From Longicatena caecimuris (GTDB lineage Bacteria; Bacillota_I; Bacilli_A; Erysipelotrichales; Erysipelotrichaceae), in assembly GCF_004341945.1 (NCBI RefSeq), contig NZ_SMBP01000001.1:210001-274000 (forward strand): 64,000 nucleotides of DNA. The letters run 5' to 3'. A program made the translations under genes and the position numbers. Below are positions 23,955 through 28,671 of this stretch, one piece after another. Under the pieces are notes generated by a model. That model made no database searches. It worked only from the letters and a program-made list of their open reading frames with translations, and had not been told where the DNA came from. The first letter of the stretch is position 1. The number at the start of each line of letters is the position of its first letter.

Positions 23955-25064
23955 TTATCCATGTGCTTCATCATCACCTAAAAACTCTACCAACACATCA
24001 TTTAATAGATGAAAGCCTCTTTCACTTGCCCAAATTTTCTCTTCATCTACTAAAAGCAAGCCTTTCTCTTTTTGTTTTTCGATTATTGACCCATATACTT
24101 CGCTGATATCCTTTCCAAAACGCTCAAAAAAAGCTTGTCGGGAAATACCCTGTTTCATTCGTAACGACATCATGATCATCTCAAACATCTGAGCCTTCGT
24201 ATCTAGCTTTTCATATACTGAAGATGCCCCTTGTTGCAGATAGGTTTCTAAATTGCGTGTGTTTTCATAGCGACCTCGCTTGTCTTTTCCACTTGCTCCA
24301 CAGCCAATGCCATAAAAATCTTCATATCGCCAGTAAACTTGGTTATGTAAAGAGGCATACTTGGGCTTTGCAAAATTGCTGATTTCATATTGTTGAAAAC
24401 CATATTGTTGTAACAAGGTTATCGCAAGATCATACATATCCGCTTCTATATCCTCATCAATATTCTGTATACCTTGACGACCAAATTCCGAATGAGGTTC
24501 TATTGTCAGTCCATACAAAGAAATATGCTGAATGGGAAAGGATGATACGATGGTATGTAAATCTTCCTCCCACATAGCCAAGCTTTGCTTAGGTAAACCA
24601 TAGATCATGTCAATAGAAATATTATGAATACCATGTGCATGAATACGTTTTATACAAGCAAGGACATCTTCGCTCGTATGATGACGATGCATCTGATTCA
24701 GCAAAGATGGTTGCAAGCTTTGCACTCCCAGAGAAATACGATTCACGCCATAACGCTGACATATATCTAACTTTTCATCCGTTAAGGATTCAACATTGGC
24801 CTCGATCGTATATTCGTTTACTTCTTTTGTATAAGGAACTAGTAAGGATAATAGTGTTTCCAGTTGATGCGGCTGTAATGCACTCGGCGTCCCACCACCA
24901 ATATACATCGTCGTTAGCGGTGATAACTTTTTTATCGTCAATTCCTTTGCCATCGCCGCCAACCATTTTTCGGCAAGCCCAACATGATAACGGCATCGAA
25001 AAAAATCACAATAGGCGCAGATATCCTGACAAAATGGCACATGTAAATAAGCAGCTTTGCACAT
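23955..25064 (-). CDS. hemW: Radical SAM heme chaperone HemW
   Basis: A 369-residue member of the HemW/HemN-like radical SAM group, formerly annotated as anaerobic coproporphyrinogen oxidase but thought to insert heme into target proteins. The 4Fe-4S motif is C12-x3-C16-x2-C19 within HVPFCQDICAYCDF, followed by MYIGGGTPSAL and IDMIYGLPKQ. It starts 22 bases after the Spo0A-like gene. In many Firmicutes hemW is followed by hrcA-grpE-dnaK; here it ends the run. lepA, its usual neighbour, is nearby but separated by two genes. Confidence 0.92.
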   Translation of the reverse strand: MCKAAYLHVPFCQDICAYCDFFRCRYHVGLAEKWLAAMAKELTIKKLSPLTTMYIGGGTPSALQPHQLETLLSLLVPYTKEVNEYTIEANVESLTDEKLDICQRYGVNRISLGVQSLQPSLLNQMHRHHTSEDVLACIKRIHAHGIHNISIDMIYGLPKQSLAMWEEDLHTIVSSFPIQHISLYGLTIEPHSEFGRQGIQNIDEDIEADMYDLAITLLQQYGFQQYEISNFAKPKYASLHNQVYWRYEDFYGIGCGASGKDKRGRYENTRNLETYLQQGASSVYEKLDTKAQMFEMIMMSLRMKQGISRQAFFERFGKDISEVYGSIIEKQKEKGLLLVDEEKIWASERGFHLLNDVLVEFLGDDEAHG

Positions 25065-25086: not shown

Positions 25087-25806
25087 TTAATAGGTCAACA
25101 TCGTTAATTTCAAATGTTCACTCACATAATGAATGATCTGTGAGCAGGTTGGCTTGGTATTATAGACGCAGATTAATTCCGGACAATGACGATACGCATA
25201 GGCAATCGCTGTACGCATACATTTTTCAACACGTATTTGGGTCGTAGCATGAACTTTTGCCACCATAGCGTATAAGGTCCCCATCTTTAACTGTAACGGA
25301 TCTTCCTGCTGTGAAAATAAAATCGCAGCGGTACGTAAATAATTATAGCCTTTTAAGTGCGCCGGCAGGCCAAGTTCTTCCAGGATCCTGCCAGCCACAC
25401 TTTCCGAGGTCCAGTTGCCATTTTCCACAAGCTTATGATAGCGATTCTTGCTATGGATGGCTTCCATCAATTCATGAGGATTATAAGGTTTTGCTAAAAA
25501 AGTATGTAGATCATATTGTGCCATAAGTTGAAAAACATCGCTATCCATTTCATCAAACATCATGATAATTTGCAAGTTCACTAACGCTTCGCTCAGCGCA
25601 ATTTCTTCTAATAAATATTTCGCCTTTTGCTGGTCGATGGCATAACGCATGATAAAAATATCTGCATCTTGTTGTATGAGTTCTGTGGCAGACTGTGGAA
25701 TGGATGTGGTAATACCAACGATTTTAAGATCTTGTTCCTCCATGCTCATATCCATAACTTGTTTCAGCAATACAATGTCATCCAGACAAACATACACTCT
25801 TGCCAT
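25087..25806 (-). CDS. Spo0A-like transcription factor with degenerate receiver
   Basis: A 239-residue protein in two parts. The C-terminal half (about 138-235) matches the Spo0A DNA-binding domain: GLPAHLKGYNYLR at 146-158, TTQIRVEKCMRTAI at 188-201 covering the recognition helix, and TKPTCSQIIHYVSEHLKL at 217-234. The N-terminal half resembles a CheY-type receiver, but the phosphoacceptor position in ADIFIMRYAI is R54 and the switch Thr is lost, while the lysine of FLAKP (K106) remains. It probably cannot be phosphorylated in the normal way. It is either this organism's divergent Spo0A or a paralogue. It lies between an unknown winged-helix-like gene and hemW, not beside spoIVB. Confidence 0.8.
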   Translation of the reverse strand: MARVYVCLDDIVLLKQVMDMSMEEQDLKIVGITTSIPQSATELIQQDADIFIMRYAIDQQKAKYLLEEIALSEALVNLQIIMMFDEMDSDVFQLMAQYDLHTFLAKPYNPHELMEAIHSKNRYHKLVENGNWTSESVAGRILEELGLPAHLKGYNYLRTAAILFSQQEDPLQLKMGTLYAMVAKVHATTQIRVEKCMRTAIAYAYRHCPELICVYNTKPTCSQIIHYVSEHLKLTMLTY

Positions 25807-25823: not shown

Positions 25824-26690
25824 TCAGCTGTTTATATAATACACAAATTTACGACCGACTTTTTCTTTGGTATACCAACCTAAAGCTACCAAGCCATCCA
25901 TAGAAGTGCGGGCTGTTTCATAACATACATCATGTTCTTGCATACATTGGGCAATCGTATAATAATGATGTGCTTCATGATGCTTTGCATAAAAGGCGGC
26001 CTGTATCAAGGACATTGCCGGACATACTTCTTGTAAAGTTTGAGCATCATAGGTAAGAAATTGCCGGCTTTTCCGTTTTAATGATACCATTCTGTTTGAA
26101 ATTTGCAACTGTAAATCTTCAAGAAACCTTAGCAGCGCATAGGTCAAATCATGTTCCTGATGTTCGATCAGTATATCACGATATAGCGATTGCAATAATT
26201 CCCCATCTCCTAAACCACAAAGTCCTTCACAACGCAACATGAGTTCAGCTGCTCGTAAAAGCGATTCCTTATGTTCTTGCAAGAGAAAAAATAAACGTAA
26301 TATCACATGGATAGATGTATTACAGATCAGCTGTACATACATTTGAGGAATCGCTATATGAAAGCATTTCACTGTTTCTGATATATCACAGGGCCATTGC
26401 TGCTCGATATAAAAGCGCTGTGCCTGTGTTAATGTAGATGAATGTGTTGGTTTCTTATGCCGTTGTTGATATTGCAGAAGTAGCCTTTCACAAAAGGAAA
26501 GCTTTTGTATTACATATGGGTTTAAGGTAACATAGTATGGTTTTTCTTTATATGGTGTAAAACGAAAGATTCGTCGATATTCTTGAATTTGTTGCCATAC
26601 GCTTTCCAATACGACGCCTGATAATTCTTTCCTTAATTCCTCTTTCTTGATATATTGATCTTCACTATATGTCCTTGTTGTTTCAAACAT
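25824..26690 (-). CDS. Unknown protein with winged-helix-like C-terminus
   Basis: A 288-residue protein that I do not recognise as a whole. The middle is helical. The last 50 residues (YETARTSMDGLVALGWYTKEKVGRKFVYYI) look like a winged-helix unit of the kind seen at the end of some Fic proteins or MarR-like regulators, but no Fic motif is present. ATG at 26690 has GGAG nine bases upstream; a TTG start 17 codons earlier would coincide with the -35 box. It ends 17 bases before the Spo0A-like gene, so the two are probably co-transcribed and may work together. Confidence 0.7.
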   Translation of the reverse strand: MFETTRTYSEDQYIKKEELRKELSGVVLESVWQQIQEYRRIFRFTPYKEKPYYVTLNPYVIQKLSFCERLLLQYQQRHKKPTHSSTLTQAQRFYIEQQWPCDISETVKCFHIAIPQMYVQLICNTSIHVILRLFFLLQEHKESLLRAAELMLRCEGLCGLGDGELLQSLYRDILIEHQEHDLTYALLRFLEDLQLQISNRMVSLKRKSRQFLTYDAQTLQEVCPAMSLIQAAFYAKHHEAHHYYTIAQCMQEHDVCYETARTSMDGLVALGWYTKEKVGRKFVYYINS

Positions 26691-26711: not shown

Positions 26712-26741
26712 AGTGTAGCATGTTTTTACAGGAATCCTCAA
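26712..26741 (-). promoter_or_regulatory. Promoter of the winged-helix/Spo0A-like/hemW operon
   Basis: TTGAGG (26741-26736), an 18-base spacer and TACACT (26717-26712) with a TGn extension on the minus strand. It lies just before the chosen start at 26690. Confidence 0.5.
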
Positions 26742-26837
26742 AGTTTCGACAAAACTAGCGAAAAACAGACCTTTTACAGCCTGTTTTTCTTATCTTCCTC
26801 GTATTATGCATTCACATAAGTGATATGTTTGCTTATT

Positions 26838-28643
26838 TTAAGATTCATCATCCATGGATAGAACCGCCATAAATGCTTCCTGTGGAACCTCCACACTGCC
26901 TACCGCCTTCATCCGTTTCTTTCCTTCTTTTTGTTTCTCTAATAATTTTTTCTTACGGGAAATATCCCCACCATAACATTTTGCCAAGACATTTTTGCGC
27001 AAAGATTTAATATCTGCACGAGCAATGATTTTCCCATTGATTGCTGCCTGAATAGGAATTTCAAATTGCTGTTTAGGAATCAATTTCTTTAATTTTTCAC
27101 AAATAGCTCTTCCTCTTGGATATGCAAACTCCCGATGCACAATGCTGCTTAAGGCATCGACAACTTCTCCATTTAACAAAATATCCATCTTCGCTAACTT
27201 ATTGGGCTGATAACCGATTAATTCATAATCAAAGGATGCATAGCCCTTCGTACAAGATTTCAGTTTATCAAAGAAATCATAAACAATTTCTCCTAAAGGT
27301 AATTCATAAATCAGATTCATTCTCGTATCATCAATATACACCATATCCGTATAATTGCCACGCTTGCGCTGACACAGTTCCATGATTGCCCCGACATATT
27401 CTTTTGGTGTCATGATGCTGGCTTTGACAAATGGCTCTTCAATATGGTCGATTTTCTGCACATCAGGTAACAGGCTTGGATTATCAATAGCAAGCATGCT
27501 GCCATCTGTCAGATAAGCATGATAGACAACTGAAGGCGCGGTTGCAATCAGATCAATATGATATTCACGCTCAATGCGTTCTTGAACAACATCCATATGT
27601 AGTAAACCCAAGAAACCACAACGAAAACCAAAACCTAAAGCCTGTGAAGTTTCCGCTTCAAATTGCAAAGAAGCATCATTTAATTGTAATTTTTCCAAAG
27701 CATCACGAAGATCATTATATTTTGCCGAATCAATCGGATATAAACCACAATATACCATAGGGTTCATTTCCCGATATCCATGCAGTGGTGCACTAGCAGG
27801 ATATTCGACATTGGTTATGGTATCACCGACACGCACATCTTGAATGGATTTGATTGACGCACATAACCAACCAACTTCTCCACATTCCAAACTGTCTTTC
27901 TTGACCTCTTTCGGTGTACGTACACCACATTCCAACACTTCATACTCTGCATCACTCGCCATAAAACGCACCTTATCACCAACGCGAATACGACCTTCCT
28001 TTACCCGCACAAAGGCAATGACACCACGATAGGCATCATAAACAGAATCAAATACCAAGGCCTGTAAAGGCGCATTAGGATCACCCTTTGGTGCCGGTAC
28101 ATTGGCTACGATATCTTCTAACACATCACGTATATGCAAGCCATTTTTAGCTGAGATCAATGGTGCACAAGAAGCATCCAAACCAATCACATCTTCAATT
28201 TCTTTTTTAACGACATCCGGTTGTGCACTAGGTAAATCTATCTTGTTGATGACAGGTAAAATTTCTAAGTCATTATCCAATGCTAAATACACATTTGCCA
28301 GTGTCTGTGCCTCAATTCCCTGAGCCGCATCTACGACTAAAACAGCACCTTCGCAAGCTGCTAAAGAACGAGATACTTCATAAGTAAAATCGACATGACC
28401 TGGTGTATCAATCAAATGAAAAATATAAGTCTTTCCGTTTAATGCTGTATATTGCAGCTGTACGGCATTTAGTTTAATGGTGATGCCACGTTCACGTTCC
28501 AGATCCATCGTATCCAACAGCTGTTCTTTCATTTCTCTTTGCTCAACGGTTTCCGTCAATTCCAAAATACGATCCGCAAGCGTTGATTTTCCATGATCAA
28601 TGTGGGCGATGATGGAAAAATTACGTATATATTTTTGTTCCAC
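26838..28643 (-). CDS. lepA: Elongation factor 4 (LepA)
   Basis: Ribosome-associated GTPase implicated in translation quality and ribosome biogenesis. The G1 motif AHIDHGKST spans residues 13-21, followed by the switch I block [16 protein letters not shown] and NKIDLP. The C-terminal LepA-specific domain ([22 protein letters not shown]) is intact; length 601. I chose GTG at 28643 since AGGAG lies upstream at a good spacing; a TTG seven codons earlier sits on the ribosome site. It has its own promoter. Confidence 0.96.
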
Positions 28644-28671
28644 AGGTATCACTCCTAACAACACAGACCTA

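Follow-up and report, generated by a model that had tools for sequence, protein, structure and literature searches.

A Spo0A paralogue with a pseudo-receiver domain behind a predicted Spo0A-type promoter in Longicatena caecimuris and other Erysipelotrichaceae

Introduction

Entry into sporulation is usually described in terms of kinases and phosphatases acting on Spo0A. The spores of gut bacteria matter for transmission (PMC8340488). A locus in Longicatena caecimuris raises the question of what a Spo0A-like protein can do when an arginine occupies the place of the phosphoacceptor aspartate in its receiver. The window analysed here, 64,000 nucleotides of contig NZ_SMBP01000001.1, encodes such a protein of 239 amino acids on the reverse strand (positions 25087–25806), which we call PSR (Spo0A paralogue with pseudo-receiver). 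A sequence-only reading of the gene had left two branches: PSR is the only Spo0A, and sporulation entry is controlled in another way, or it is a paralogue that could antagonise true Spo0A at its DNA sites. In a 2025 review, receivers without at least one of five active-site residues are termed pseudo-receivers, those without the aspartate form an aspartate-less class, and the workings of pseudo-receivers are called a mystery (PMC12632262). PSR offers a concrete, testable case.

Results

PSR combines a receiver fold with a Spo0A-type effector. It scored 64 bits against Pfam Spo0A_C (cut-off 25), 25.2 bits against Response_reg, below the cut-off of 30.2, and 63.6 bits against the Spo0A equivalog TIGR02875, which requires 200. 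Both domains were recovered in an AlphaFold2 model built from 13 sequences (mean pLDDT 89.3), their relative placement being unsure because the pTM was 0.56. With VIA-align, the best match of the receiver (residues 1–123; 25438–25806, reverse strand) was the Spo0A receiver 5wq0 (Z 16.3, rmsd 2.2, 123 aligned). The C-terminal half, with the DNA-binding domain at residues 132–236 (25099–25413, reverse strand), matched 1lq1, the Spo0A effector on DNA (Z 16.0, rmsd 2.4, 104 aligned, 35% identity). The likeness of this half to Spo0A, proposed from sequence alone, was thus confirmed.

Residue alignment with the B. subtilis receiver paired D10 with L8, D11 with D9, D56 with R54, T86 with a phenylalanine and K108 with K106. 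R54 (codon 25645–25647, reverse strand) is the C-terminal end of strand beta3 (residues 50–54) in the model, and the pairing of PSR 1–123 with 5wq0 3–125, given as ranges only, is consistent with R54 lying on the phospho-aspartate of Spo0A. The earlier description of this receiver, with an arginine at the phosphoacceptor position, the switch threonine gone and K106 kept, was therefore accurate; the first aspartate of the acidic pocket is missing as well. D58, considered as a substitute phosphorylation site, pairs with P60, four residues beyond the aspartate at the start of alpha3, and no other aspartate fills the site. Judged from its sequence, PSR is a paralogue of Spo0A in which the receiver has turned into a pseudo-receiver. 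It was not filed as Spo0A proper because defining features of Spo0A were tested for and found lacking. We are highly confident of this identity and of the promoter assignment described below.

The source genome (2.95 Mb in 45 contigs, 99.96% complete) contains five Spo0A_C matches. One of them, at C1:166128-166439, is a canonical Spo0A of 276 amino acids that has its DD, D, T and K residues intact and adjoins a spoIVB-like gene, as opposed to the hemW-side location of PSR. The branch in which PSR is the only Spo0A is thereby discarded, which leaves the paralogue branch. The remaining three matches are short and receiver-less; two of these proteins (L002, G000:C5:90635-90946; L003, G000:C36:4835-5113) resemble the Spo0A carried by phages (PMC10294663). 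PSR is also a warning that Spo0A_C matches by themselves should not be taken as evidence of sporulation. A phage origin of the PSR locus was considered and rejected: viral contigs yielded no relative of its neighbour WH305 and just three distant Spo0A-domain matches for PSR. A different arrangement occurs at L008/L027 (G026:C1:27492-28653), where a 247-aa Spo0A paralogue lies convergently beside canonical spo0A.

The genes around PSR are all on the reverse strand; the partner gene, the conservation of the operon and its 0A-box promoter had escaped the sequence-only reading. Directly downstream, after a gap of 22 bp, lies hemW (23955–25064; TIGR00539, 277.9 bits), which is probably co-transcribed with PSR. 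Upstream lies WH305 (25824–26690; 288 aa from a conserved ATG), and the three genes form an apparent operon. The next gene upstream, lepA (26838–28664), was identified from its sequence; LepA homologues are 79–91% identical in relatives.

WH305 most likely is a shrunken, Fic-derived and catalytically dead DNA-binding protein with a C-terminal winged helix. Its Pfam matches are all sub-threshold, with none to PF02661. A genome scan with the WH305 alignment returned 23 loci and drew in true Fic proteins from genomes of Clostridium, of a Negativicutes and of one more member of the Bacillota; the three that were scanned score 67–72 bits against Pfam Fic. These proteins align along the length of WH305 through its N-terminal segment, a D-x-T helix and the winged helix; the Fic core with HPFxxGNGR (motif HPFx[DE]GNGR) is absent from WH305. 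The top Foldseek matches of the WH305 model were Fic proteins, at a weak E of 0.013 and with no Fic protein in the model's alignment. A second fold comparison returned mostly winged helices for residues 210–288 and barely covered the N-terminal part; in it, 8cil gave a Z of 8.6 with an rmsd of 11.8 over 230 residues. A 512-aa protein of a rumen MAG, located between lepA and hemW (L142:5648-7183), has a degenerate Fic motif (VKPFRDFNEE) and a long acidic insert, and its score of 21.9 bits against Fic falls short of the cut-off; it resembles a transitional form on the way from Fic to WH305. A Fic-derived origin of WH305 is considered most likely in view of the Fic alignment, this apparent intermediate and the Foldseek matches. 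An order-wide search found WH305 outside Erysipelotrichaceae only as one chance-level match. A stand-alone protein of 80 amino acids in a MAG labelled Mycoplasmataceae (L145:6977-7216) matches the winged helix of WH305 alone, with 41% identity.

Orthologues were sought in 273 genomes of the same family, the loci of which were then read. Syntenic PSR orthologues occur in 19 genomes from nine genera of Erysipelotrichaceae, usually in the order lepA, WH305, PSR, hemW; carriers include Dielma fastidiosa, Merdibacter massiliensis, Ca. Merdibacter merdigallinarum, Bacterium c-19 and a Traorella MAG. They are 17–40% identical to PSR of the source genome, and the copies of the Traorella group are shortened to 214 amino acids. 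A scan of genome contigs with PSR alone gave no match. WH305 is present in 28 genomes and lies directly before PSR or hemW wherever the contig allows; it stands beside PSR in 18 of the 19 PSR genomes. This constancy is what might be expected if PSR worked with WH305 alone, as a ligand-gated regulator of hemW or of a small local regulon with WH305 as sensor or DNA-binding partner. Such a local unit is improbable in our estimation, since ten genomes have WH305 with no PSR beside it, PSR occurs without WH305 in G006, and hemW, a housekeeping gene, has no known role in sporulation. In genomes that have WH305 and lack PSR at hemW (L044, L050 and L051 of genus g21, also L023 and L032), other Spo0A-like proteins of about 231–236 amino acids are encoded elsewhere. 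These have degenerate receivers (Asp56 replaced by K, Q or E in g21) but keep segment 229–236, so that their receivers apparently degenerated by independent loss.

Among 16 aligned PSR orthologues, the aspartate position is occupied in turn by R, Q, E, R, E, D, D, D, D, Q, Q, E, Q, D, D, D; aspartate is thus absent in nine, PSR of the source genome included, and kept in seven. All 16 have lost the first acidic residue, the switch threonine is a serine in two and lost in the rest, and the lysine is kept in three. As none has all five active-site residues together, all 16 are pseudo-receivers, and nine are aspartate-less receivers, under the definitions in the review (PMC12632262). The seven aspartates and three lysines that persist could mean that a phosphate or some other modification, placed on a different residue, still switches PSR. 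We regard this as very improbable given that the first acidic residue has disappeared throughout, that the five residues never occur together and that PSR itself carries R54. A related erosion was seen in a sister family of the same order (f2; L008, L010-L015, L017, L018), whose main Spo0A has a near-canonical DNA-binding domain. There, the lysine equivalent to B. subtilis K108 is I, Q or Y in 9/9 proteins (motif CF/YK[YQI]P); many of them have lost the first acidic residue too, with Asp56 and Thr/Ser86 kept. Formally, this Spo0A too is a pseudo-receiver protein under the review's definition (PMC12632262).

Fast divergence, reflected in the low identities and the shortened Traorella copies, might suggest that PSR is a decaying, functionless duplicate. 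Such a relic is largely refuted by dN/dS values of close PSR pairs of 0.09–0.26 over the whole gene and by synteny; with frames open in nine genera and the promoter conserved, we attach almost no weight to it. For the receiver part, dN/dS was 0.09–0.20 where it could be estimated, indicating that this domain is maintained and not decaying. By these ratios, PSR is under purifying selection. In a tree of DNA-binding domains, PSR groups with 12 orthologues (90/97, drawn open), and L074, L077 and L078 sit unplaced on long branches. Because the tree leaves these three unplaced, a single-duplication origin of all PSRs rests on synteny and on a shared missing segment of the effector domain.

This segment corresponds to residues 230–236 of B. 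subtilis Spo0A, absent in all 16 PSR orthologues, and to residue 229, absent in 15; the canonical Spo0As and other paralogues compared have it. It includes S231, S233 and F236, at which mutations in B. subtilis leave DNA binding intact and prevent the activation of sigma-A promoters. If this role holds, PSR should bind DNA and not activate. The recognition helix is largely preserved (V212 and R217 in 16/16 orthologues, E213 in 15/16), with R214 changed to lysine in 15/16 and H218 lost in 16/16. Because these two changes may shift DNA specificity, PSR need not compete for Spo0A boxes. They also point to changed DNA contacts and thus bear on the main rival to antagonism, in which PSR, as a Spo0A heterodimer or in a complex with WH305, steers to a second set of promoters and serves as a coincidence detector, not a brake. 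Purifying selection on the receiver fold suggests an interaction surface, and the WhiI heterodimer with BldM in Streptomyces sets a precedent (PMC12632262). Against such a selective co-regulator stands the missing segment, which argues against activation as long as its assumed role is right; moreover, no second promoter set was identified. We consider this role rather unlikely.

A promoter element TTTGTCGAA-N24-TGCTACACT lies upstream of WH305 (26712–26753, reverse strand), with a 0A box at 26745–26753 and an extended −10 at 26712–26720. Between it and lepA, a terminator-like hairpin (26760–26789, reverse strand) matches the consensus and is not enriched over shuffles. The box is present as TTTTGTCGAA at a conserved position; its core, TGTCGAA, is known from B. 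subtilis and C. difficile as the Spo0A box (PMC3485338). Should the TG-extended element be the −10, the 0A box would lie at about −48 to −40, a position usual for activators. The spoIIA operon of the same genome has two 0A boxes, and N24 and TGCTAAGAT come after the second. The composite TTTGWCGAA-N24-TGNTANNNT occurs at exactly two sites in the source genome, before WH305 and before spoIIA, and its reversed control at none. It precedes WH305 in 14 genomes from five genera; family-wide, the identifiable genes behind it are WH305 or spoIIA, and most other matches examined lie inside unrelated ORFs. Exact TTTTGTCGAA was rejected as a marker by itself (14 genome sites, several inside ORFs, and fewer than its reversed control). 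It does not discriminate; box plus spacing plus −10 was the sole informative pattern. The operon promoter is predicted to be of the Spo0A-activated type.

Among 13 representatives covering 12 genera, 7 have an exact TTGTCGAA no more than 150 bp upstream of WH305, compared with a mean of 0.075 and a maximum of 2 in 1000 shuffles; the box is absent or partial in four of the 12 genera. It accompanies WH305 even without lepA upstream (G233, G012) and without PSR (G124, G134), and none was found in G006, the PSR genome without WH305. As the box also occurs where WH305 lacks PSR, the promoter cannot tell the role of PSR.

The PSR family is nearly restricted to spo0A-positive genomes. Canonical Spo0A, counted at 140 bits or more, is encoded by 18/19 PSR carriers and 26/28 WH305 carriers, SpoIVA by 16/19 and 25/28, respectively. 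Fisher p values for Spo0A were 3e-17 or smaller over genomes and 4e-9 at the genus level, where all 12 WH305 genera are Spo0A-positive; both are inflated because many of the genomes are MAGs and related.

Discussion

Antagonism of Spo0A at its DNA sites is our leading mechanism for PSR because segment 229–236 is missing, the recognition helix is kept and the promoter is of the Spo0A type; DNA binding and antagonism are both inferred. Rising Spo0A~P would turn on the WH305-PSR-hemW operon together with spoIIA. PSR might then bind 0A-like boxes with no need for phosphate, be it by itself, together with WH305 or in a mixed dimer that includes Spo0A; WH305 may assist it. Lacking the activation segment, it would give no help to sigma-A RNA polymerase and would compete with or re-target Spo0A, providing delayed negative feedback or a timer on the commitment to sporulation. 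That PSR is a Spo0A~P-induced, phosphorylation-independent and activation-defective DNA binder with such a feedback function strikes us as nearly an even call. More tentatively, Erysipelotrichaceae may possess a dedicated anti-Spo0A that is expressed from a spoIIA-type promoter, paired with a dead Fic-derived DNA-binding protein and part of a self-limiting loop. To our knowledge, no such loop is known in Bacillus or Clostridium. A conserved aspartate-less Spo0A, probably under the control of Spo0A itself, would represent a different layer of control, exerted by a paralogue acting at DNA.

Aspartate-less regulators in general have already been described (PMC4395418, PMC12632262). In the open-access literature, we found no report of a conserved aspartate-less Spo0A, of its 0A-box operon or of a Fic-derived partner. 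WH305 shares the N-terminal segment, D-x-T helix and winged helix of Fic/DOC proteins with a C-terminal winged helix but, unlike these, is devoid of the Fic core. Compared with Spo0A itself (TIGR02875), PSR has the receiver and Spo0A_C effector in common, and both halves match Spo0A structures best; it differs in lacking the phosphorylation site and segment 229–236, in its locus and in scoring far under the family cut-off. In C. thermocellum, another full-length Spo0A homologue, Clo1313_0637, is described in addition to the main Spo0A; this second protein is 49% identical to B. subtilis Spo0A, and the accessible part of that report mentions neither an aspartate loss nor a promoter of the PSR kind (PMC4890492). 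Phages carry truncated, receiver-less Spo0A, in which the effector is freed from phosphorylation control as in PSR (PMC10294663). In contrast to these, PSR has a folded receiver according to model and structural match, is chromosomal and is syntenic. WhiI/BldM, CmrT and ChxR resemble PSR in having a receiver fold without phospho-chemistry, and WhiI and CmrT also in having a paralogue or partner regulator; on the available text, they have no Spo0A effector and are not Spo0A targets, which sets PSR apart from them (PMC12632262, PMC4395418).
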